Shown here: in pieces, positions 8,725-38,529 of the stretch
Layout: the number at the start of each line of letters is the position of its first letter
Numbering within the stretch: the first letter of the stretch is position 1
DNA from: Chloroflexi bacterium OHK40
GTDB taxonomy: Bacteria > Chloroflexota > Chloroflexia > Chloroflexales > Chloroflexaceae
DNA: 64,000 nt
Assembly: GCA_004367505.1 (NCBI GenBank)
Contig: SFCB01000028.1
Location: 1 to 64,000 of the forward strand
Direction of reading: 5' to 3'
Translations under genes and position numbers: made by a program
Notes under the pieces: generated by a model
The model's input: only the letters and a program-made list of their open reading frames with translations
The model's database searches: none
What the model was told of the DNA's origin: nothing

Positions 8725-9125
8725 ATGGAACCACGGATCGCTTGCGGTACCTCGGAGAAGCACTACCCCCGCAGGGGCAGGCTCCGCTTGCACAGAGGCT
8801 GGCGTGGGGACGTGCGAACCGACCCATAGGCGTCGTTCCCGCGCATGCGGGAACTCAGGCCCCCCCGCTTGCGCGGGGGCAGGCCCCCCGGCGTCCGACC
8901 CTGGACGCCCGCCTGCGCGGGCGTGACCCCAAGTGTGCCGAGGTGTCGTTCCCGCGCAAGCGGGAACCCATCCCCCGCCTGCGCGGGCGTGACCCCACGC
9001 GCACCAGGGTGTCGTTCCCGCGCAAGCGGGAACCCAGGCCCCCCGCTTTCGCGGGGGCAGGCCCCCGGCGTCCTACCCTGGACGCCCGCCTGCGCGGGCG
9101 TGACCCACGCACGTGCGTTACGCTC
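8725..9125. repeat. Block of GC-rich palindromic (REP-like) repeats
   Basis: This 400-bp gap holds three copies of a palindrome of the form GTCGTTCCCGCG-nn-GCGGGAA (8832-8854, about 8945-8967 and 9011-9033). Between them are CCCCGCTT-n-CGCGGGG and CGCCCGCC-tg-CGCGGGCG palindromes. The first and last composite units (about 8832-8930 and 9011-9110) are nearly identical direct repeats of ~100 bp, with a shortened unit between them. The arms match the general architecture of widespread extragenic palindromes that begin GTC.TTCCCGC and end GCGGG..TGAC. Related copies lie at 46541-46660 and 59400-59440. No credible gene is present; reading frames through the block are Arg/Pro/Gly-rich shadows. Confidence 0.85.
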
Positions 9126-12373: not shown

Positions 12374-12865
12374 ATGCCGATCCTGATCGATGGCCACAAC
12401 CTGATCGGGCAGCTGCCCATGCTGAGCCTGGCCGACCCGGACGACGAGGCCAGGCTGGTGCTGATCCTGCGCCGCTACGCCGCCCGCCGGCGGGGTCGCC
12501 GGGTGATCGTAGTCTTCGACGGGGGTGTCTACGGCCACCCTGAGCAGTTGAGCGGCTATGGCGTCGAGGCGCATTTCGCGCGCTCCCCCGCCGACGCGGA
12601 TGCCGAGCTGATCCGCAAGATCAGAGCCATCCGCCGCCGCGACGAGTGGCTGGTGGTCAGCTCAGATCGGGCTGTGATTGGCGAGGCCCGCGCCCGTGGG
12701 ATCCCAACCCTGAGCGCCCAGGAGTTCGCCCGTCGCCTGGCCAGCCTCGACCAGCCACGCGCCTCGCTGAGCGCGAAGCGCAACGATCGCCCCCTGAGCC
12801 GCGAGGAGGTCGAGGAGTGGCTGCGCGTCTTTGGTGAGCCTGATAGTGGTGAGGAGGAGCCGTAG
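12374..12865 (+). CDS. NYN-domain protein (YacP/Rae1-like putative ribonuclease)
   Basis: 163 residues with the PIN-like NYN fold: LIDGHNLIG at the N-terminus (acidic metal residue plus Asn), VVFDGG, ADAELIRKI and VSSDRAV with the downstream acidic cluster. Relatives include Bacillus Rae1/YacP, a ribosome-associated endoribonuclease; this copy is of similar size. It is first in the 12374-17274 operon, one base before the methyltransferase GTG, but its link to that pathway is probably only positional. The start is ATG with no Shine-Dalgarno. Confidence 0.85.
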   Translation: MPILIDGHNLIGQLPMLSLADPDDEARLVLILRRYAARRRGRRVIVVFDGGVYGHPEQLSGYGVEAHFARSPADADAELIRKIRAIRRRDEWLVVSSDRAVIGEARARGIPTLSAQEFARRLASLDQPRASLSAKRNDRPLSREEVEEWLRVFGEPDSGEEEP

Positions 12866-12866
12866 G

Positions 12867-13715
12867 GTGGATTATACGACGATCCGGGAACAGAATCGCC
12901 GCTCGTGGAATGCGGTGGTGCCGGCGCACGCGAGCCACCGCCCCGGCCTCGCCGCCTTCCTGCGCTCCGGTGGCAGCACGCTCTTCCCCGAGGAGTTGGA
13001 GTTGCTCGGCGACGTGGCGGGCCGGTCGCTGCTGCACCTGCTCTGCAATGCCGGCCAGGATACGTTGAGCCTCGCCGCCCTTGGCGCGCGCGCCACCGGT
13101 GTCGACCTGAGCGACGCGGCGGTGGCCCGCGCCCTGGCGCTCAGCGCCGAGAGCGGCATCCCGGCCCGCTTCGTCTGCGCCGATGTCTACGACTACCTCG
13201 CCGAGGCCGCCGGGGCCGGCTTTGCGCGGATCTACTGCGGCTACGGCGCCATCTGCTGGCTGCACGATCTGGCGGCCTTCGCGCGGGGTGTGGCCGCCGC
13301 CCTCGCTCCGGGTGGTCGCTTTGCGCTTGTGGAGTTCCACCCGGTGGCGAATATGTTCGATCCGTCCTGGCGCCTCACCGCTGATTACCCGCAGGGCGGG
13401 GCGCTGCTCACCCTCGACGGCGTGGGCGACTATGTAGGCGCCGCCGGGGAGGGGCTGGCGCCCGGCGGCTACGCTGAGGGCGTGCGCGACTTCGCCAATC
13501 CCCACGCCTGCCACCTCTTCCGCTGGGGGGTCGGCGAGGTGGTGAGCGCCCTGGCCAGCGCCGGGCTGGCGATCGTGGCCCTCCGGGAGTACCCCTTCGT
13601 CAACGGCGAGCGACCTTTCGAGCGCATGCGTAGTGAGGGCCGCCGCCGCTACCCGCCTGCTGAGCTTCCCGCTATTCCGCTGATGTACGGTCTCGCCGCC
13701 GAGCGGCCGGTGTGA
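12867..13715 (+). CDS. Class I SAM-dependent methyltransferase
   Basis: 282 residues. The AdoMet fold is recognisable: LLHLLCNAGQDTLSLAALGARATGVDLSD is motif I with the acidic end of strand 2 (broken here by a C in place of the usual first Gly), followed by FVCADVYD (motif II) and LAPGGRFALVEFHP (motif III). The start is GTG 12867, two bases after the NYN stop and 12 bases downstream of GAGGAGG; an upstream in-frame extension to 12831 only overlaps the NYN gene. As it sits in a run of pterin- and riboflavin-type genes, it is a candidate tailoring enzyme for their product. Confidence 0.88.
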   Translation: MDYTTIREQNRRSWNAVVPAHASHRPGLAAFLRSGGSTLFPEELELLGDVAGRSLLHLLCNAGQDTLSLAALGARATGVDLSDAAVARALALSAESGIPARFVCADVYDYLAEAAGAGFARIYCGYGAICWLHDLAAFARGVAAALAPGGRFALVEFHPVANMFDPSWRLTADYPQGGALLTLDGVGDYVGAAGEGLAPGGYAEGVRDFANPHACHLFRWGVGEVVSALASAGLAIVALREYPFVNGERPFERMRSEGRRRYPPAELPAIPLMYGLAAERPV

Positions 13716-13727
13716 GCCAGGTGGTCT

Positions 13728-14096
13728 ATGGAGAGCGACCGAATCATCCTTGAAGGCATGGTCTTTTTCGGCTACCACGGCACGCGCCCCGAGGAGACGA
13801 CGCTGGGCCAGCGCTTCGTGGTAGATGTGGCGCTGGAGTTGAGCCTGCGTGCCGCCGGTGAGTCCGACGATCTGGCCGCCACGGTTGACTATAGCGCCGT
13901 GCATCGTAGCACCCGCGCCATCGTTGAGGGTCCACCCCTCAAGCTTACCGAGGCCGTGGCCGAGCGGATCGCCGGGGCCGTTCTGGCCGAGCACCCCGCT
14001 GTGCAGGCGGTGCAGGTGCGGGTACGTAAGCCCAATGTTCGCCTTGACGATACGGTGCTGGCCGGCTCCATTGTTGAGATTACGCGCCGACGATGA
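13728..14096 (+). CDS. folB: Dihydroneopterin aldolase family protein
   Basis: 122 residues, the family's standard length. Active-site features are all present: HGTRPEE (substrate Glu), TVDYSAVH (Tyr of the T-V-D-Y-S motif), KLTEAVAERIA and VRVRKPNV with the catalytic Lys. FolB cleaves dihydroneopterin to 6-hydroxymethyl-dihydropterin and glycolaldehyde and can epimerise at C2'. No FolK, FolP or FolE accompanies it, and the RibD-type reductase overlaps it by four bases. Its role may therefore be in the pteridine-like pathway of this operon rather than folate synthesis. Confidence 0.9.
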   Translation: MESDRIILEGMVFFGYHGTRPEETTLGQRFVVDVALELSLRAAGESDDLAATVDYSAVHRSTRAIVEGPPLKLTEAVAERIAGAVLAEHPAVQAVQVRVRKPNVRLDDTVLAGSIVEITRRR

Positions 14097-14773
14097 GCCC
14101 ACGCCCACAGATCACTCTCAGCTATGCCCAGACTCTCGATGGGCAGTTGGCCACGCGCACCGGCAGCTCGCAGTGGATCGGCGGCCCGGAGTCGCTGCGG
14201 TTCGCCCACGGGCTGCGCACCCGCCACGATGCCATCCTTGTGGGGATCGGTACCGTGCTCGCCGATGATCCGCGCCTCACCGTGCGGCTCGTGGACGGGC
14301 GAAGCCCGCTCCGCGTGGTGCTCGATAGCCGGCTCCGCGTGCCCCTCGGCGCCAGGGTGCTGCGGGAGGGCGCCGCCAGCGGGACACTGATTGCCTGTGT
14401 GGAGGGCGCCGACCCGGAGCGCCGTGCTGCGCTCCAGGCCCTGGGGGCGCGGGTGGTCGTTCTGCCGCCTGGCCCAGACGGCGGCGTAGCGCTGGAGGCG
14501 CTGCTCGATGACCTTTACGCGCTCGGGGTGGGCACGCTGATGGTGGAGGGCGGCGCGCGGGTGATCACCGCATTGCTGCGCGCCAGGCTTGCCGACCGGA
14601 TAGCCGTCTGTGTTGCGCCCCGCATCCTCGGCACCGGGCTCGCCGCCGTGGGCGACCTGGGGATCGCCCATCTCGCCGAGGCCCTGCTGCTTGATGAGCC
14701 CCGCGTGACGGCCTATGGCGCCGACCTGATCATCGAGGCCCGGATCAGTTACCCGGAGCGCCAGGCCGATTAG
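14093..14773 (+). CDS. RibD C-terminal-domain reductase (DHFR fold)
   Basis: Stand-alone reductase domain, 226 residues, without the N-terminal deaminase of bacterial RibD. Landmarks are SYAQTLDGQLATRTGSSQWIGG at the N-terminus, HDAILVGIGTVLADDPRLTVR and the late MVEGGARVI nucleotide-binding segment. Such enzymes use NADPH to reduce the ribosyl side chain of the pyrimidine formed from GTP by cyclohydrolase II. Stand-alone versions can act on the non-deaminated pyrimidine, as in fungi and archaea. It overlaps folB by ATGA. A GTP cyclohydrolase II gene faces this operon 2.7 kb downstream, so a GTP-to-reduced-pyrimidine route is plausible. Confidence 0.9.
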   Translation: MSPRPQITLSYAQTLDGQLATRTGSSQWIGGPESLRFAHGLRTRHDAILVGIGTVLADDPRLTVRLVDGRSPLRVVLDSRLRVPLGARVLREGAASGTLIACVEGADPERRAALQALGARVVVLPPGPDGGVALEALLDDLYALGVGTLMVEGGARVITALLRARLADRIAVCVAPRILGTGLAAVGDLGIAHLAEALLLDEPRVTAYGADLIIEARISYPERQAD

Positions 14774-14801
14774 CGCGCCCCGGCCGCGCACAGGAGTCCC
14801 T

Positions 14802-15839
14802 GTGGAAGCGCTCACCGCCCGTGCCGTCTGGTTTGTTGCCCCGCGCCAGGTAGAGCTGCGGGAGGAACTGGTGCCACCGCCCGGCCCTGGCCAGGTGCGT
14901 ATTGCCGCTATCGCGTCGGCCATCAGCCACGGCACCGAGTTGCTCGTCTACCGGGGTGAGGTCGATCCGGCCCTCGAGCTGGATCTGCCGACGCTCGTGG
15001 GGAGCTTCGCCTTCCCGATCAAGTATGGCTACGCTAGTGTCGGCCAGGTGCTCGACGTGGGCGCCAGCGTGACGGGCCTGGCGCCAGGCGATCTGGTCTT
15101 TGTGCTGCACCCCCACCAGAGCCTCTACAACGCCTGCGCCGAGCTCGTTGTACCACTGCCGCAGGGCCTCACCCCCGCGCAGGGCCTCTTCTTCGCCAAC
15201 GCCGAGACGGCCCTCACCATCGCCCACGACGCGGCTCCGCGCCTGGGCGAGAGCGTGGTTGTCTTTGGCCAGGGTGTCGTGGGCTTGCTGGCTGCCCAGA
15301 TGCTCCGGCTCGCCGGGGCCGCCCGGGTGATCGCCGTAGACATGAACCCGCGCCGGCGCGCGCAGGCCCTGGCCCTGGGTGTGGACGCCGCCCTGGCCCC
15401 CGGACCGGAGCTCCCCGAGGAGCTGCGGGCGATCAATGGTGGGCGCCTCGCCGACCTCGCCGTGGAGGTGAGCGGCGCACCGGCCGCGCTGCAGGCCGCC
15501 ATCGGGTGCGTGCTCGACGAGGGGAGCGTGCTGGTGGCATCCTGGTATGGCCGCAAGCCGGTCACGCTGGATCTCGGCACACGTTTTCATCGGGGTCGCA
15601 TCCGGCTCCGTTCCACCCAGGTGGGCCGGCTGGCCCCCGAAACCTGGCCGCGCTGGGATCACCGCCGCCGCCGTGAGAGTGTGGCCGCTTTGCTGCCGCG
15701 CCTACGCCTCGATGAGCTGGTGAGCCACAGCCTCCCCGTCGAGCGCGCCGACGAGGCGTACCGCCTGGCTGAGCTCGGCGCCGCACTGCAGGTGGTCTTA
15801 ACGTACCGCGAGAAAGAGACGCTTCTATGTACGAGCTAG
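14802..15839 (+). CDS. Zinc-less medium-chain dehydrogenase (MDR), BchC-like subgroup
   Basis: 345 residues. The Rossmann part is clear: VVVFGQGVVGLLAAQMLRLAG with an acidic residue at the end of strand 2 (AVDMN). The N-terminal GroES-like domain has ISHGTELLVYRG where zinc alcohol dehydrogenases have a Cys-bearing CGSD motif, and the four structural-zinc cysteines are absent. This I-S-x-G-T-E form is typical of an MDR branch that includes bacteriochlorophyllide dehydrogenase BchC and related uncharacterised enzymes. It starts 28 bases after the reductase gene and overlaps the PTPS-like gene by 13 bases, implying tight coupling. Likely an NAD(P)-dependent oxidoreductase in the pteridine-like pathway. 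Confidence 0.86.
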   Translation: MEALTARAVWFVAPRQVELREELVPPPGPGQVRIAAIASAISHGTELLVYRGEVDPALELDLPTLVGSFAFPIKYGYASVGQVLDVGASVTGLAPGDLVFVLHPHQSLYNACAELVVPLPQGLTPAQGLFFANAETALTIAHDAAPRLGESVVVFGQGVVGLLAAQMLRLAGAARVIAVDMNPRRRAQALALGVDAALAPGPELPEELRAINGGRLADLAVEVSGAPAALQAAIGCVLDEGSVLVASWYGRKPVTLDLGTRFHRGRIRLRSTQVGRLAPETWPRWDHRRRRESVAALLPRLRLDELVSHSLPVERADEAYRLAELGAALQVVLTYREKETLLCTS

Positions 15840-16201
15840 GTGTCATCAGCCAGTTCGAGGCGGCCCATCGCCTCACCGGAGCGTTCGGGCCTGCTACACG
15901 GATGCACGGCCACACCTACCGCCTGGAGGTGCTAGTGCGTGGGCCGTCCCTGCGCCCGGACGGAACACTCTGCGATCTGGTGGCGCTCCAGGCCGCCGTG
16001 AGCGCGGTGGTTGGCGAGCTGCACTACCGCGATCTCGGTGAGGTGCCCGGGCTGGCCGGGGTCAATACGACTGCCGAGCATGTGGCCGCCTATTGCTGGC
16101 GTCAGCTGGCCGCCGCACTGGATGAGCCGGCGCTCGCGAGCCTGACGGTGCGGGTATGGGAGAACCCCGGCGCCTACGCGGCCTACGAGGGCGCGCTCTA
16201 A
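15827..16201 (+). CDS. 6-pyruvoyl/6-carboxy-tetrahydropterin synthase-like protein lacking catalytic Cys and Asp-His pair
   Basis: 124 residues, T-fold PTPS/QueD family. The three zinc ligands are in place: His14 (EAAHRL) and His27 and His29 (MHGHTY). The nucleophilic Cys, normally four residues before the first His of HGH, is Ala23. The usual LDH segment that gives the Asp-His proton relay reads LHY (His66-Tyr67). Glu84 (NTTAE) and the C-terminal WENP Glu, which bind the pterin ring, are kept. So it can probably bind a pterin or pyrimidine at zinc but should not run the standard reaction. It overlaps both neighbours (13 bases and 1 base) in the operon. I recall similar FGPA-x-R-x-HG proteins in actinobacterial clusters, from memory only. 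Confidence 0.85.
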   Translation: MYELGVISQFEAAHRLTGAFGPATRMHGHTYRLEVLVRGPSLRPDGTLCDLVALQAAVSAVVGELHYRDLGEVPGLAGVNTTAEHVAAYCWRQLAAALDEPALASLTVRVWENPGAYAAYEGAL

Positions 16202-17274
16202 TGCGCCTGGCCTTCGTGACCGTGGGCGACCCGGCGCGGCTCACCGGGGGCTACCTCTATCACCGTGAAGTCTTTGCCCGGCTCAGGGCCCGTGGCCTGG
16301 CCCTCGATGAGATTGTCGCGGCGGGCGCGGAGCTGGCCGAGCAACTCGCCGCAGCGCCGGCCCTTGGCGCTCGGCACCGCCCCGAGGCATACACCGCGAC
16401 CGTGGTCGATGCGCTGGCCCGCGCGGTCTGCGCGCCATGGCTCGACCGCTGGCGTGCCCGGGGGCCACTGGTGGCCATGGTCCACGAGCTGCCCTCGGTT
16501 GCGGGCGCGGGCGACGCCGCCGAGCTGGATTGCGAGGCGCCCCTGCTGCGGGCCGACCGGCTGATTGCCGTGAGCGAGGACGGCGCCAGGCGTCTCGCCG
16601 CCCGGGGCGCCCCGCCCGAGCGGATCGTGGTGGCCTCCGGGGGCTATGATCGCCTGGGAGCAGCGCCGGCCCGCCGGCCAGCCGGCTTGCCGCCGACCGT
16701 GCTCGCGGTTGGCCAGTGGATTCCGCGCAAAGGCCTGCTGGAGCTGGCGCGGGCATGGGCGCTGATTGCGCCCTCGCGCCCCGGCTGGCGCCTGGAGCTC
16801 GTCGGTGAGACGAGCGCCGACGGGCCATATGCCGAGGCGGTGCATCGGGCGCTGGCAGCGGCGCCGGTGGGCAGTGTGGCGGTACGGGGTCCGCTGAGCG
16901 ACAACGAACTGGCCAGGGCCTACGCGGGCGCGGCGATCTTCGCGCTTCCGTCCCGCTACGAGGGCTACGGGATCGCCTTTGCCGAGGCCCTGGCCTTTGG
17001 GCTGCCGGTCGTTGGCTGCGCCGTGGGCCCCGTGCCCGCGCTGGTAGGCCCCGAGGCCGGGTTCCTGGTGCCGCCCGGCGATGAGCGGGCCCTGGCTGGG
17101 ACCCTGGCCCTCCTGATCGACGACGCCGCGCTGCGCGAGCGCATGGCCGGCGCCGCCCGCGCTCGGGCCATCGCTTTGCCCACCTGGGACGACTGTGCCG
17201 CGCGCTTCCTGGCCGCCGTCGAGCAGGCCGTCGCGGAGCGCCGTGGGGCGATCCCGCCCTCGCTGCTGCCCTGA
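16201..17274 (+). CDS. Glycosyltransferase family 4 (GT-B) protein
   Basis: 357 residues from an ATG overlapping the previous stop (TAATG). The C-terminal nucleotide-sugar domain is clear: VLAVGQWIPRKGLLELARAW, RLELVGE, and the PSRYEGYGIAFAEALAFGLPVVG stretch carrying the E-x7-E motif. The N-terminal acceptor domain begins MRLAFVTVGDPARLTGGYLYH, with the glycine-rich loop expected for GT-B enzymes. Co-translation with the PTPS-like gene suggests it glycosylates the product of this operon. Pteridine glycosides are known from green bacteria and cyanobacteria, so this is a reasonable but untested idea. Confidence 0.88.
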   Translation: MRLAFVTVGDPARLTGGYLYHREVFARLRARGLALDEIVAAGAELAEQLAAAPALGARHRPEAYTATVVDALARAVCAPWLDRWRARGPLVAMVHELPSVAGAGDAAELDCEAPLLRADRLIAVSEDGARRLAARGAPPERIVVASGGYDRLGAAPARRPAGLPPTVLAVGQWIPRKGLLELARAWALIAPSRPGWRLELVGETSADGPYAEAVHRALAAAPVGSVAVRGPLSDNELARAYAGAAIFALPSRYEGYGIAFAEALAFGLPVVGCAVGPVPALVGPEAGFLVPPGDERALAGTLALLIDDAALRERMAGAARARAIALPTWDDCAARFLAAVEQAVAERRGAIPPSLLP

Positions 17275-17475
17275 GGCGAGCGCATGACCCGGAGAGACCA
17301 TCTGTGCCAGCGGGGCTCTGGTCGCATCGGGATGCCCTCCGTACGGCGCAGCGCTCCCCACCCACGCACGCGGATGGCTGCCTCCACGCCCGACCTCCGG
17401 TAGATGCCCACACGTTCTGCACGCTTTCAACCTGGCCGGGCCGGGGTCGCGAGATCTGTGGGCAACCTACTGGTG
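17275..17475. other. Convergent intergenic region
   Basis: Lies between the glycosyltransferase stop (plus) and the GTP cyclohydrolase II stop (minus). I see no strong hairpin with a T-run and no gene-like frame; small frames here are shadows. Confidence 0.4.
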
Positions 17476-18075
17476 CTAGAGCAGGTGACCCATGCGCTCG
17501 CGCTTGGCCCGCAGGTAGGGCCAGTTATGGTGATTAGGCGTAACCGTCACAGGCTGGCGCTCCACCACGCACACGCCGTGCTCCTCAAGGCCGCTCATCT
17601 TGAGGGGGTTGTTGGTTGCCAGCGCCACGTAGCGCACACCGAGATCCAGCAGCATCTCCGCTGCGGCCCGATAGTCACGGAGGTCGTCGGGGAGACCAAG
17701 GGCGCGGTTGGCATCCACGGTATCGAGGCCCGCCTCCTGGAGCGCGTAGGCGCGGATCTTATTCCCGAGGCCGATTCCCCGGCCCTCCTGGCGCAGATAG
17801 ATCAGCACACCACGCCCCGTACCCTGGAGCAGGCGCAGCGTCTGATCGAGCTGCTCGCCGCAGTCACAGCGCTGCGAGCCGAAGACATCGCCAGTGAGGC
17901 ACTCGGAGTGGATGCGCACCAGTGCCGGCGCCCCGTCGTCTACCGGGCCCACCGTCAGGGCCACGTGCTCCTTTCCCTCCGGCGCGACATAGACGTGCAT
18001 CTGGAAGGTACCATACCGGGTCGGGAGGGTGGTGCTGGCGATGCGCTCGGTAGAGCGCCGTGCGACCTGGGTCAT
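17476..18075 (-). CDS. ribA: GTP cyclohydrolase II
   Basis: 199 residues, stand-alone RibA (no fused DHBP synthase). Zinc ligands lie in SECLTGDVFGSQRCDCG, the active-site RQEGRGIGL follows, and the KIRAY motif keeps the Tyr (E. coli Tyr105) whose loss elsewhere changes the product. It should therefore make the normal diamino-ribosylamino-pyrimidinone phosphate with formate release. The C-terminal TNNP, GHLL and NPNN-like parts are normal. The start ATG 18075 is backed by AAAGGAG; a longer frame to 18114 is rejected. It faces the 12374-17274 operon and may serve riboflavin, that operon's product, or both. Confidence 0.94.
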   Translation of the reverse strand: MTQVARRSTERIASTTLPTRYGTFQMHVYVAPEGKEHVALTVGPVDDGAPALVRIHSECLTGDVFGSQRCDCGEQLDQTLRLLQGTGRGVLIYLRQEGRGIGLGNKIRAYALQEAGLDTVDANRALGLPDDLRDYRAAAEMLLDLGVRYVALATNNPLKMSGLEEHGVCVVERQPVTVTPNHHNWPYLRAKRERMGHLL

Positions 18076-18422
18076 GGAACGACTTCTCCTTTGTAGCGAG
18101 TACAGCATCGCCATAGCGTGGGACTCGGAGCCTTGCCACCCGGTAGGTCAACGTATCGGGGGCTTGACACCGCCGTAGGCGGGGGCGATCCTTCCTGCTG
18201 GGCGCAAACGCTGATACAACGTCGACGCCGCACGCTGCGTCCCTGCGCAGGCGACCGAGCGATGGTGGTAATTCCACACCTCCTGCCACTAGCGCGGGGG
18301 GCGTGCGAGTTCTGCCTGACAGTATACCCTGATTTAATGCTGCAACACCATCAGGCGGGAGGTTGGTTGGCAAGCGCCGCTCCTTCCTTCTGACGTTACG
18401 CAAGCCCTACCTCTGCACCATA

Positions 18423-36321: not shown

Positions 36322-37548
36322 CTACTGGCGCTGGTCGATGCCAACCTGCCGTAGATCGGGCCAGAGCCCCAGGGCTGCGGTGAGCAGCGCCCCGGTGGCA
36401 AGCAGCCCCCCGCCAAGGTACGGAGCGGGGGGACCGGCCAGGTCGAAGAGCAGGCCGGCGATGGCTGGCCCGAGCACGAGGGTGAGGCTGAGGAGTGCCT
36501 GCATACCACCCATCACGGCGCCCTGGCGTCCCTCGCCCGCCCGCCGGGAGACGAGGCTGGTCAGGGCGGGGATGGCCAGCCCTGTGCCGACTGCCAGGAG
36601 CCCCACAAGCGGGTAGAGCGCCCAGCCCGCCGGGGCGAGCGCGGTGAGGCCCAGGCACCCGGCCATGGTGGCCAGGCCGCCGAGCACCAGCAGCGGCTCG
36701 CCCAGAGCTGGTTGCAGGCGGCCGATCAGGAGCGCCTGGGTGAGTACCGCGCAAAGGCCCACAAACGCGAAGAAGACCCCGTTCTCCACGCTGTCCCAGC
36801 CGAAGCGCGCGTTGCTGTAGAGCGGAAAGTTGCTCTGCAGCCCGGCGAAGGCGAGATTCAGCAGCACGATCGCTAGCAGGAGTGGGCGCACGTCGCGCAC
36901 GGTGGCGGCCTGGACGATCGGCCCGAGCAGGTTCCCGGGCCGGAGGGGCTGGCGCGCGCGGCGTTCGACCGGGAGCGACTCCGGGAGTAGCAGCAGGCCA
37001 TAGATCCCGTTGAGCAACGCCAGGCCGGCGGCAAGGAGCGCCGGCACGCCGAGCCCGAAGCTGCTCAGCAGCCCGCCGGCGGCTGGCCCGAGCATGAGGC
37101 CCAGACCGAAGGCCGCGCCGATCAGGCCAAGACCCCGGGCGCGGTCCTCGGGCGGCGTGCTGTCGGCGATGTAGGCCTGGGCGGTGGGGATGCTGGCGCC
37201 CGCCGCGCCGCCGAGGGCCACGGCGAGGAAGATCAGCGGCAGCGAGCGGAGAGTCGCGGCTACGGCCAGCAGCGCGTAGGCGCCACCCGCTCCCAGCACG
37301 CAGCCCACCAGCACCGGGCGCCGGCCCACCCGGTCGGAGAGGGCGCCGAGCACCGGGGCGAGCACAAGCTGGGCCACGGCGTACAGTGAGCTGAGCAGGC
37401 CCACCAGCAGCGCGCTCTCGGAGCGCTCGCGCACCATAAACGGTAGCAGCGGCACGATCATGCCGTAGCCCAGCATGTCGAGAAAGACGCAGATGAAGAC
37501 GATCAGCAGCGGCGAGCTGCGGCGGAGGCGGGCAAACACGGCGCTCAC
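36322..37548 (-). CDS. MFS transporter (drug:H+ antiporter-like, Tet/Bcr type)
   Basis: 408 residues, about twelve membrane helices. LLIVFICVFLDMLGYGMIVPLLPF opens the protein, and the loop 2-3 motif reads LGALSDRVGRRPVLV, the classic MFS signature; motif C-like GLMLGPAAGGLL lies in helix 5. The start is GTG 37548, overlapping the stop of the acyltransferase gene upstream on the same strand (GTGA); the longer frame to 37701 is rejected. Substrate unknown. Pairing with an acyltransferase recalls lysolipid-handling pairs, though the sequence itself looks efflux-like. Confidence 0.9.
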   Translation of the reverse strand: MSAVFARLRRSSPLLIVFICVFLDMLGYGMIVPLLPFMVRERSESALLVGLLSSLYAVAQLVLAPVLGALSDRVGRRPVLVGCVLGAGGAYALLAVAATLRSLPLIFLAVALGGAAGASIPTAQAYIADSTPPEDRARGLGLIGAAFGLGLMLGPAAGGLLSSFGLGVPALLAAGLALLNGIYGLLLLPESLPVERRARQPLRPGNLLGPIVQAATVRDVRPLLLAIVLLNLAFAGLQSNFPLYSNARFGWDSVENGVFFAFVGLCAVLTQALLIGRLQPALGEPLLVLGGLATMAGCLGLTALAPAGWALYPLVGLLAVGTGLAIPALTSLVSRRAGEGRQGAVMGGMQALLSLTLVLGPAIAGLLFDLAGPPAPYLGGGLLATGALLTAALGLWPDLRQVGIDQRQ

Positions 37549-38501
37549 GGCCGCGCAACCTCGCGGATGAGCCTCCGGGCCTCGGCGGCCACCGCCACGC
37601 TCAGGGGGCCACCCGAGGCCACGATCGGTGTCCCAAGCTGGACCCGCACCACTGTGCGCCGCAGCCGGGGGACGGCCAGTTGCAGGATCGCGGCAAGCCA
37701 CTGCCGGTCGGCCGGGGTGCGGCGCAGGCGTAGCAGCGGGTGGCGCAGGGCCCCGGGGGCGAGCACCCCGCCGACGATCGCGGGCAGCACGGTCACCTTG
37801 TCCGCCAGGCGGGCCAGGGTGTCTACACTGGTCGACCAGTGCGCCACGCTCGCCGCAGCCCCGGGCAGGCGCAGCGGATCGGGCTCGATCCGGCCAGCCG
37901 GGAAGCTGAGCAGGGCCCCCCCGGAGCGCAGGTGGCGGGCGGCCATACGCAGAGCTGCCGTGCGGGCGGCGGGTGTTGTGCCCACCGGGATGAGGTGGGC
38001 GGCGATCCCGGGTAATGCCCTCAAGAAGGGCCGCGTGATTGCAAGCACCCGCAGGTCGTTGCGGGGGATAGCCGCAAAGAGCGCCGCTGCGTCGAGCAGG
38101 CCCGGGTGGTTCGCTACCACCAGCAGCGGGCCACGGGCTGGGGGTGGCGGGCCGCGCAGCTCGAGGCCCTGGCTCAGACGCCCGCAGATCCAGGCGCCCC
38201 CCGCCGCAAGGCCCTCAGCGGCGACCCGTGCGTCGAGCTCGAGCATCTGGCGCGCGAAGCGCCGGGCAGGCCAGCGGCAGGCCAGTTCGGCCAGGCTACG
38301 GAGTGGCACGCCGGGGCGCAGGCCGAAGGCGCTGAGCATATCGGCGATGTTCAGCCAGGTAAGGTCGGCCAGCGCGGCATCGCCCGGGGCCGCCTGAACC
38401 CGCGCTGGCGGCGCCGGGGCCAGCGTGGCGAGGTAAGGCATAATCGAGATGGGTGAGCCGGCCAGCAGTGCCAGACGGATGTGCGCGGAGACTCGTTCCA
38501 T
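37545..38501 (-). CDS. PlsC-like acyltransferase
   Basis: 318 residues. LLVVANHPGLLDAAAL supplies the H-x4-D catalytic motif and FPAGRIEPDP the substrate-binding motif (F-P-x-G) of glycerolipid acyltransferases. The ~110-residue N-terminal extension before the domain is not recognised. ATG 38501 has no visible Shine-Dalgarno; an internal ATG at 38441 is possible. Divergent from the ferredoxin-type gene and translationally coupled to the MFS gene. Confidence 0.82.
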   Translation of the reverse strand: MERVSAHIRLALLAGSPISIMPYLATLAPAPPARVQAAPGDAALADLTWLNIADMLSAFGLRPGVPLRSLAELACRWPARRFARQMLELDARVAAEGLAAGGAWICGRLSQGLELRGPPPPARGPLLVVANHPGLLDAAALFAAIPRNDLRVLAITRPFLRALPGIAAHLIPVGTTPAARTAALRMAARHLRSGGALLSFPAGRIEPDPLRLPGAAASVAHWSTSVDTLARLADKVTVLPAIVGGVLAPGALRHPLLRLRRTPADRQWLAAILQLAVPRLRRTVVRVQLGTPIVASGGPLSVAVAAEARRLIREVARP

Positions 38502-38529
38502 GATAGCACAGCGCGCGCCGGCCCTGTGT

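Follow-up and report, generated by a model that had tools for sequence, protein, structure and literature searches.

A conserved gene cluster of Chloroflexi bacterium OHK40 as a candidate route from GTP to a reduced pteridine

We set out to ask what could be made by a compact gene cluster of Chloroflexi bacterium OHK40 whose members carry the family labels of folate, queuosine and riboflavin enzymes. The cluster lies in a stretch of 64,000 nucleotides, here called the window. Open frames together with Pfam and NCBIfam searches place six plus-strand genes in a tight row, with a GTP cyclohydrolase II (GCH II) gene converging on them from the opposite strand across a 201-base gap to the last. The genes, with one upstream neighbour, are as follows.

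12374 to 12865, plus strand: YacP-like NYN protein (Pfam 57.8 bits), ending one base upstream of the methyltransferase gene
12867 to 13715, plus strand: class I SAM methyltransferase, type MTa (GTG start; Pfam Methyltransf_25, 41.6 bits for the frame from 12831)
13728 to 14096, plus strand: FolB, dihydroneopterin aldolase family (Pfam 113 bits; above the TIGR00525 cut-off)
14093 to 14773, plus strand: stand-alone RibD_C reductase (Pfam 168 bits)
14802 to 15839, plus strand: zinc-less MDR dehydrogenase, BchC-like (GTG start; Pfam ADH_zinc_N, 72 bits)
15827 to 16201, plus strand: PTPS/QueD-fold protein without the catalytic Cys (Pfam 106 bits)
16201 to 17274, plus strand: GT4 family glycosyltransferase (Pfam 92 bits for the frame from 16156)
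17476 to 18114, minus strand: GCH II (RibA), Tyr105 form (Pfam 218 bits)

Gaps between the six, from methyltransferase to GT4, are 12, -4, 28, -13 and -1 bases, the PTPS/GT4 junction being a TAATG overlap. The gene set, the gaps of -13 to 28 bases and the facing GCH II gene thus agree with the original prediction, whose end point of 18075 is an internal ATG of the GCH II gene; the true span reaches 18114. Gene calls are uncurated six-frame open frames, some of which merge neighbours, as in MTa frames of 1.9 kb. An Rfam search of the whole window gave no matches.

Neighbourhood comparison, the check first proposed for this locus, showed the arrangement to be kept across phyla and in both domains. 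The MDR-PTPS-GT4 core occurs also in Chloroflexota, Rubrobacter, Streptomyces-like genomes, Proteobacteria and haloarchaea, with modified forms of the gene set in actinobacteria, rhizobia and haloarchaea, and RibD_C accompanies the core in most bacterial loci. The phylum survey was a sample of 400 genomes, 80 of 418 relatives were kept for locus comparison, and 261 plasmid records had an MDR match, 12 of which, among those listed, were inspected. After removal of 19 loci repeating one contig stretch, 56 loci had 5 kb on both sides of the MDR gene; within that distance lay GT4 in 48, PTPS in 47 and RibD_C in 42. GCH II or GTP cyclohydrolase III (GCH III) was that close in only 21 of the 56. Chance adjacency of GCH II should be rare because a genome of several Mb holds one or two such genes. 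In many lineages no FolB gene stands close to the core, and four loci (L110, L113, L119 and L120) have no PTPS gene close to it. We consider RibA and FolB likely members of the pathway in at least some lineages. In the literature within reach, which left out most subscription papers, we recognised no description of this gene set, and an earlier mention is possible. New here are its archaeal and proteobacterial versions, the RibA-RibD_C fusions, the replacement by GCH III, the creatininase pairing and the lipid-gene neighbours.

Such a set might still be a chance grouping of housekeeping genes, with RibA and RibD_C serving riboflavin, FolB folate and PTPS queuosine synthesis. In keeping with this, the window's genome (G000) has a single detected GCH II, at the operon, and the operon FolB is the sole FolB found; FolE (GTP cyclohydrolase I) and an HPPK match are present as well. 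Riboflavin synthesis, judged by lumazine synthase (PF00885) alone, tells against it. That enzyme was found in 14 of the 22 genomes searched and in all 14 controls, but not in G000, G246, G222, G260, G104, G016, G062 or G401. The first five have one GCH II each, at the operon; in G016 the GCH II gene lies on a different contig from the operon.

The folate genes lead to a similar point in one lineage. The catalytic Glu, Tyr, Glu and Lys of FolB are intact in the window copy, and the aldolase residues are intact in 35 of 37 aligned copies. Four Roseiflexaceae-like genomes (G142, G385, G400 and G401) carry an operon FolB with all four residues, while neither FolE nor HPPK was detected in them, nor FolE2 in the two tested; all four are draft assemblies from a single lineage, and for two of them completeness is not stated. 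G330 of the same family lacks FolE too, and has no PTPS match. The set thus shares with the folate pathway (FolE-FolB-FolK) a FolB above the TIGR00525 cut-off, and differs in that FolB is retained in four genomes without detectable FolE and FolK, so that its substrate there should come from elsewhere, with the operon a candidate source. In the window's own family FolE is present in all nine tested genomes, G000 included, and FolB may therefore serve folate. Given the lumazine synthase not found beside the single GCH II, the FolB kept without FolE and HPPK, a PTPS-like protein that lacks the catalytic Cys and falls short of the QueD model, and a gene order kept across phyla, we reject the housekeeping mixture as highly improbable. 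What stands of the predicted GTP-derived pathway is a distinct and conserved set, as opposed to scattered folate, queuosine and riboflavin genes.

We next considered where the pathway would begin. The window RibA retains the GCH II residues checked, namely the zinc cysteines and Tyr105. Among aligned copies the position of E. coli Tyr105 holds Tyr in 33 of 39 and Met in 6 of 39. A creatininase-family gene adjoins all six Met-type RibA genes and none of the Tyr-type with the seed model, several of these loci being short. BrbF of this family deformylates exactly the proposed entry pyrimidine (PMC9478397). The window gave no creatininase match, with a model that had also absorbed spurious members. 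Matches in L049, L051, L087 and L088, from a second model round that had absorbed spurious members, were discarded as shadow frames near and opposite RibA; the later search returned to the two-seed model. GCH III takes the place of GCH II in three of the seven haloarchaeal loci seen (L067, L146 and L178). RibA-RibD_C fusions stand directly ahead of MDR in seven loci, one of which (L130) was checked with Pfam, and they are spread over three regions of the MDR tree, some of which have weak support. Chloroflexus has no GCH II beside the operon. Taken together, the fusions, the GCH III swap and the creatininase pairing make the ribosylamino-pyrimidine the probable starting compound of the pathway.

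The Met-type loci also bear on a statement in the original prediction, that actinobacteria hold similar sets, one with an atypical RibA; they are just such sets (S. fungicidicus L070 and five Streptomyces-like loci, L161-L165). Like the window, they have MDR, PTPS-like, GT4, methyltransferase and RibA genes, and the MDR-PTPS-GT4 set with GCH II that marks this type is found in the window too. They differ in the Met at the Tyr105 position, where the window has Tyr, in the creatininase neighbour, and in additionally carrying a CDP-alcohol phosphatidyltransferase and an LPG-synthase-TM-like protein; neither FolB nor RibD_C was found in the six. From their numbers and from these loci we infer that SCO6650 and SCO6655 belong to one such cluster. 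SCO6655 is reportedly an atypical GCH II, both in its activity and in its Met residue, and we know of no function assigned to the SCO6650-SCO6655 region. SCO6655 is listed only as a riboflavin gene in PMC2853524, and SCO6652 appears in PMC3610822.

The second enzyme fits the same start. No RibD deaminase domain was matched in the window RibD_C protein by Pfam or NCBIfam, and its solved relatives include two pyrimidinone-phosphate reductases, 6p8c (138 bits) and 2azn (115 bits). This likeness is not exclusive, since 7lrh, a 225-aa protein labelled RibD, scores between them (124 bits); the bifunctional RibD 2b3z scores 91 bits. The first two reactions and enzyme families are therefore those of the riboflavin pathway (GCH II, or GCH III and ArfB, then an ArfC/RibD reductase). 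Unlike that pathway, the window set continues with MDR, PTPS-like and GT4 proteins in a genome where lumazine synthase was not found. An azapteridine of the toxoflavin type, in which reduction and methylation turn the GCH II product into a secreted antibiotic, would share this opening, for the toxoflavin set includes RibA, RibD_C and a methyltransferase, and the window methyltransferase matches ToxA (8rdl) weakly, at 25 bits. PTPS, FolB, GT4 and MDR are not known from that set, however, and we regard such a product as very unlikely.

The middle of the pathway would fall to the MDR and PTPS-like proteins. The description of the former as zinc-less held: a Cys at the first catalytic-zinc ligand stretch occurs in none of 104 aligned homologues. 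The protein scores 88.9 bits against the BchC model, under the equivalog cut-off of 291.25. For the second protein, predicted to be PTPS/QueD-like, the fold agrees but the chemistry of the name does not follow, as the catalytic Cys is present in 0 of 96 aligned homologues (Ala in 75, Glu in 21) and the zinc His set is incomplete in 21 of 96; we call it PTPS-like only. The Glu that we take to be Glu110 of E. coli QueD is kept in all 96. QueD and PTPS families thus share the fold and this Glu with the window protein, whereas the Cys is replaced in proteins of the window type. The score against the QueD model is 57 bits, with a cut-off of 89. The nearest solved relative by sequence is 3d7j (SCO6650), which the predicted fold also matches (Z 19.6, 1.1 Å over 124 residues); the match to QueD has Z 17.3.

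From these sequences we propose, with a probability of about one half, that the operon encodes a dedicated candidate route from GTP to a reduced pteridine that does not need GTP cyclohydrolase I. RibA would open GTP to 2,5-diamino-6-(5-phosphoribosylamino)-pyrimidinone, a well-supported step, and the stand-alone RibD_C would reduce the ribosyl to a ribityl chain, as its family and the fusions suggest. The zinc-less MDR might then re-oxidise C2' to a 2-keto (Amadori-type) intermediate, the same as that inside GTP cyclohydrolase I, although its regiochemistry is a guess, and the alcohol that BchC itself oxidises is adjacent to a ring. The 5-amino group could close on the 2-keto to give 7,8-dihydroneopterin 3'-monophosphate, after which two T-fold enzymes, FolB and the PTPS-like protein without its Cys, may close or shorten the side chain of the ring. 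GT4 may then transfer a sugar, and the methyltransferase may methylate the product.

The ring need not form at all: ribityl-diaminopyrimidine could be kept, glycosylated and methylated, with the PTPS-like protein and FolB binding or modifying the pyrimidine. The entry enzymes all yield the pyrimidine, the PTPS-like catalytic Cys is lost, and FolB and PTPS are each missing from some loci, all in line with an open-ring product. Two T-fold pterin families nevertheless co-occur, with FolB residues intact in nearly all copies, and a 2,5-diaminopyrimidine is unstable to oxygen until it is cyclised. We therefore judge the open-ring product somewhat unlikely.

Against solved structures the GT4 protein scores 70 bits to MshA (7qsg), 65 bits to Tll1590 (6kih) and 56 bits to PimB' (3oka), but 21.9 bits to the tetrahydrobiopterin glucosyltransferase 9v0l, below other GT4 families. 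The resemblance to pteridine glycosyltransferases (CtPGT, 9v0l), compared in sequence with 9v0l only, lies in a GT4-like enzyme and a possible pterin acceptor. Because MshA scores 70 bits and 9v0l 22, the parallel with known pteridine glycoside enzymes appears weak. This bears on a biopterin-like pathway supplied by GTP cyclohydrolase I, in which the PTPS-like protein and MDR (as a sepiapterin-type reductase) make a tetrahydropterin, RibD_C is a pteridine reductase, GT4 glycosylates and RibA is a mere neighbour. The PTPS fold would suit it, as would the glycosylated biopterins of Chlorobium and cyanobacteria (PMC5683033), and FolE is found in G000 and most searched core genomes (14 of 16 in one search, 14 of 19 in another). 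Nine core-bearing genomes without detected FolE disfavour this supply (G142, G385, G123, G062, G400, G401, G412, G413 and G416; completeness is known for only four, and in G412, an archaeon, MDR and PTPS were the only core genes observed). So do the RibA-RibD_C fusions, RibA retained where lumazine synthase is missing, the PTPS Cys lost in 96 of 96 and the distance of GT4 from the BH4 enzyme, and we find it quite unlikely.

The methyltransferase is an accessory member; its MTa type is common to Chloroflexales, Roseiflexaceae-like genomes and Rubrobacter, and in 31 of 92 loci MTa homologues stand no more than 5 kb from MDR. Two further open frames of the window are possible accessories.

37548 to 38528 (stop to stop), minus strand: acyltransferase family, type PF01553 (358 bits to a neighbour-built model)
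36325 to 38214 (stop to stop), minus strand: MFS transporter-like, so labelled from its sequence rather than a family search, paired with the acyltransferase (580 bits to a neighbour model)

In Rubrobacter and Chloroploca an acyltransferase of this type lies next to the operon. Of 56 loci, 26 have lipid-type genes no more than 6 kb away, CDP-alcohol phosphatidyltransferase occurs in four of the seven haloarchaeal loci seen (L068, L072, L135 and L178) and in all six Met-RibA loci, and cytochrome b561 occurs in three proteobacterial versions (L069, L073 and L177). Lipid genes are thus neighbours of the core in many relatives, which raises the possibility that the phosphate-bearing product is joined to a lipid. 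An extension drawn from gene neighbourhoods, which we offer as unlikely, would be a membrane lipid whose head group is a glycosylated reduced pterin. GCH II or III would then be used because the 5'-phosphate, which CDP-alcohol phosphatidyltransferase can join to lipid, is retained; GT4 might act as PimB' does on phosphatidylinositol mannoside, with an acyltransferase and a flippase-like protein finishing the molecule; and cytochrome b561 could, in some proteobacterial versions, employ the product to carry redox equivalents, which would make it the pterin analogue of the quinones.

If the proposed route is correct, bacteria and archaea of several phyla can make pterins without GTP cyclohydrolase I by riboflavin-type chemistry, and genes at present annotated for queuosine, riboflavin or folate would gain functions in many genomes. 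The Streptomyces proteins of the SCO6655 and SCO6650 types would be explained as well. It would also point to a new, perhaps membrane-bound, redox molecule. The YacP-like NYN gene at the head of the row is probably co-transcribed as a bystander, its homologues having been found next to the operon in near relatives only (12 open frames, some from duplicate loci).

The original prediction had placed seven genes in this stretch, and open reading frames and family matches bear out their positions:

12867-13715, plus strand, methyltransferase, GTG start
13728-14096, plus strand, FolB, 113 bits
14093-14773, plus strand, RibD_C, 168 bits
14802-15839, plus strand, MDR, GTG start
15827-16201, plus strand, PTPS-like, 106 bits
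16201-17274, plus strand, GT4, last plus-strand operon gene
17476-18114, minus strand, GTP cyclohydrolase II (GCH II, RibA), converging on the operon, 218 bits

The operon genes are separated by 12, -4, 28, -13 and -1 bases, the last being a TAATG overlap between the PTPS-like and GT4 genes. Pfam matches firmly assign the predicted RibD_C, FolB, PTPS and GCH II proteins to their families; in family-model searches the PTPS-like protein scored under the QueD cut-off and the MDR under the BchC cut-off. Elsewhere in the window, palindromic REP-like direct repeats of the TCGTTCCCGCGCAAGCGGGAA type (8795-9106) give spurious open frames on both strands.

The prediction called for a conserved neighborhood, and the arrangement does recur across phyla and in archaea. 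In a 400-genome phylum sample, an MDR homologue lay inside a 3.4-kb stretch at 22 of 30 PTPS loci, our own included; one of these 22 homologues is partial. We then assembled 92 non-redundant MDR loci from wider stretches around PTPS loci, eight plasmid loci and the named genomes scanned, from which 80 of 418 relatives were retained; 19 duplicate stretches were removed. For the 56 loci whose flanks reach 5 kb or more on each side, RibD_C occurred within 5 kb of MDR at 42, GT4 at 48, a GTP cyclohydrolase (II or III) at 21, and PTPS at 47. Most loci had been selected by MDR similarity and a minority via PTPS or annotated plasmid matches, so that the PTPS count especially carries some bias. RibD_C overlapped MDR or lay within 60 bases of it at 62 of the 71 loci possessing it. 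The set, whole or partial, was found in Chloroflexota, Rubrobacter, Sphaerobacter, haloarchaea, Pseudomonadales and one Thermodesulfobacteriota MAG, and on plasmids of Streptomyces, Microbacterium, Agrobacterium, Rhizobium, Methylosinus and Thiodictyon. The methane-oxidizing Methanophagales had only MDR and PTPS of the set; these genes overlap in loci L123 and L128, and neither GT4 nor RibD_C was found in those two stretches. Locus L052 (7958-13553) has two PTPS genes 4 kb apart, a 336-base GT4 fragment following the first and a full GT4 the second, which looks like a partial duplication.

Three kinds of evidence concur that the entry step of the operon is the GCH II reaction. A RibA-RibD_C fusion stands immediately before MDR at seven loci (L109, L113, L118, L119, L120, L130, L144), spread over three parts of an MDR tree in which some nodes are weak; in L130, the sole fusion checked, Pfam showed both domains. 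GCH III is an archaeal enzyme non-homologous to RibA, and it takes RibA's place at three (L067, L146, L178) of the seven haloarchaeal loci seen (the others being L068, L072, L135 and L176). Its gene overlaps MDR in L067 and follows a methyltransferase in L146, while L178 reads CDP-alcohol phosphatidyltransferase, GCH III, MDR, PTPS, methyltransferase. At the E. coli 105 position, cluster RibA proteins carry Tyr (33 of 39) or Met (6 of 39). All six Met-type genes (L070, L161-L165) adjoin a creatininase-family gene, and our two-seed creatininase profile found none with Tyr-type RibA, several of these loci being short. SCO6655 of Streptomyces coelicolor has Met here too, and its reaction reportedly ends at the formylated pyrimidine. 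The creatininase-family protein BrbF takes exactly this formyl group off the pyrimidine (PMC9478397). RibA, GCH III, and Met-type RibA with creatininase are therefore three starts that converge on 2,5-diamino-6-ribosylamino-pyrimidinone 5'-phosphate. Among solved proteins, the window's RibD_C was closest to 6p8c, a reductase of the ribosylamino-pyrimidinone phosphate (138 bits), ahead of 7lrh, a 225-residue protein labelled RibD (124), 2azn (115) and the bifunctional RibD 2b3z (91), a ranking that suits the proposed reduction, short of proof.

With lumazine synthase as the riboflavin marker, genome content indicates that the operon genes are not simply riboflavin genes. In OHK40, whose genome is 100% complete, the only GCH II gene is the one at the operon, and a profile search did not detect lumazine synthase; G246, G222, G260 and G104 show this combination as well. 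The exception is G016, where GCH II is on another contig and lumazine synthase was likewise not detected. In the Chloroflexus group, lumazine synthase was present in all five genomes searched, with GCH II genes away from the operon, and the model was positive in 14 of 14 control genomes. Two more RibD_C-type genes occur in the OHK40 genome (C148 and C194; L042, L043), one cut by the contig end; on reading, neither looked like a bifunctional RibD, which fits the absence of lumazine synthase.

Gene content likewise indicates that the role of FolB extends beyond folate. The single FolB of OHK40 may serve folate, since GTP cyclohydrolase I (FolE) and an HPPK match are both present there; FolE occurs in all nine tested genomes of its family. 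Four operon-bearing Roseiflexaceae-like genomes (G142, 98% complete; G385, 92%; G400 and G401, the sources of L140 and L141, completeness unstated) yielded neither FolE nor HPPK, and FolE2 was absent from the two tested, while all four FolB proteins keep their four catalytic residues. Elsewhere in this family, G330, a genome without a PTPS match, lacks FolE too, while G166, G323, G341 and G309 carry it. Genes of the MDR-PTPS-GT4 core were found with HPPK and without detectable FolE in G123 (92% complete) and G062 (82%), and without either in G412 (an archaeon in which only MDR and PTPS were seen), G413 and G416, although most searched genomes with core genes have FolE (14 of 16 in one set, 14 of 19 in another). 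Since core genes occur in genomes without detectable FolE, the pathway can apparently do without GTP cyclohydrolase I. Upstream of the fusion, L113 and L118 carry FolB-like genes in divergent orientation (83 and 59 bits). Neither locus showed a PTPS gene close to the core, although L118 stops soon after MDR, and the two T-fold proteins may substitute for each other.

Alignment of 96 PTPS-like homologues, a few from loci without visible MDR, indicates that their chemistry has changed. The catalytic Cys is present in none, with Ala (75) or Glu (21) in its place; Plasmodium PTPS also has Glu instead of Cys. The three zinc histidines persist in 95, 90 and 82 of the 96, and all retain the conserved Glu, the pterin anchor of known members. 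The window protein's structure model (pLDDT 96.7) matched 3d7j, the PTPS homologue SCO6650 of S. coelicolor named 'uncharacterized' in the PDB (Z 19.6, 1.1 A), above QueD (Z 17.3); Glu37 mutant entries of the Plasmodium protein were among the matches.

A path from GTP through a ribosylamino-pyrimidine to a ribityl compound is strongly implied: GTP would be opened to the first and reduction would give the second. MDR would then oxidize C2' of the ribityl chain, giving the ketone that GTP cyclohydrolase I itself makes as an intermediate by Amadori rearrangement, and ring closure would yield 7,8-dihydroneopterin 3'-monophosphate, the type of substrate that suits FolB and the PTPS-like fold. In the leading alternative, no second ring is ever closed on the pyrimidine. 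The route through MDR oxidation and ring closure would explain the co-occurrence of GCH II, RibD_C, MDR and pterin enzymes, and the retention of FolB where FolE is missing. Tailoring of the product would fall to the methyltransferase and to GT4, which is nearest to MshA, Tll1590 and PimB'. Pteridine glycosides occur in Chlorobium and cyanobacteria (PMC5683033, PMC13259868). The observed gene set is confirmed, and the prediction of a dedicated GTP-derived pathway is supported and widened, with a pteridine or pyrimidine glycoside as a candidate product; we recognized no description of the pathway in the literature searched, which omits most subscription papers.

Gene neighborhood also makes a lipid link of the product possible. 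Of the 92 loci, 28 have a PlsC-like acyltransferase within 5 kb and 8 a CDP-alcohol phosphatidyltransferase, the latter being present also in five further Streptomyces-like loci and in L166, L177 and L178. LPG-synthase-TM flippase-like proteins are also among the neighbors, and 26 of the 56 loci have a gene of at least one of these three types within 6 kb. Cytochrome b561 genes sit inside three proteobacterial clusters (L069, L073, L177). In the window, acyltransferase and MFS-like open frames (36325-38528, minus strand) lie about 20 kb from the operon; a pair of the same type adjoins it in Rubrobacter and Chloroploca. An mdoH-type membrane glucosyltransferase directly precedes MDR in Methylosinus (L074, 7070-8872, divergent) and Neorhizobium (L179, 6082-7995, same strand).
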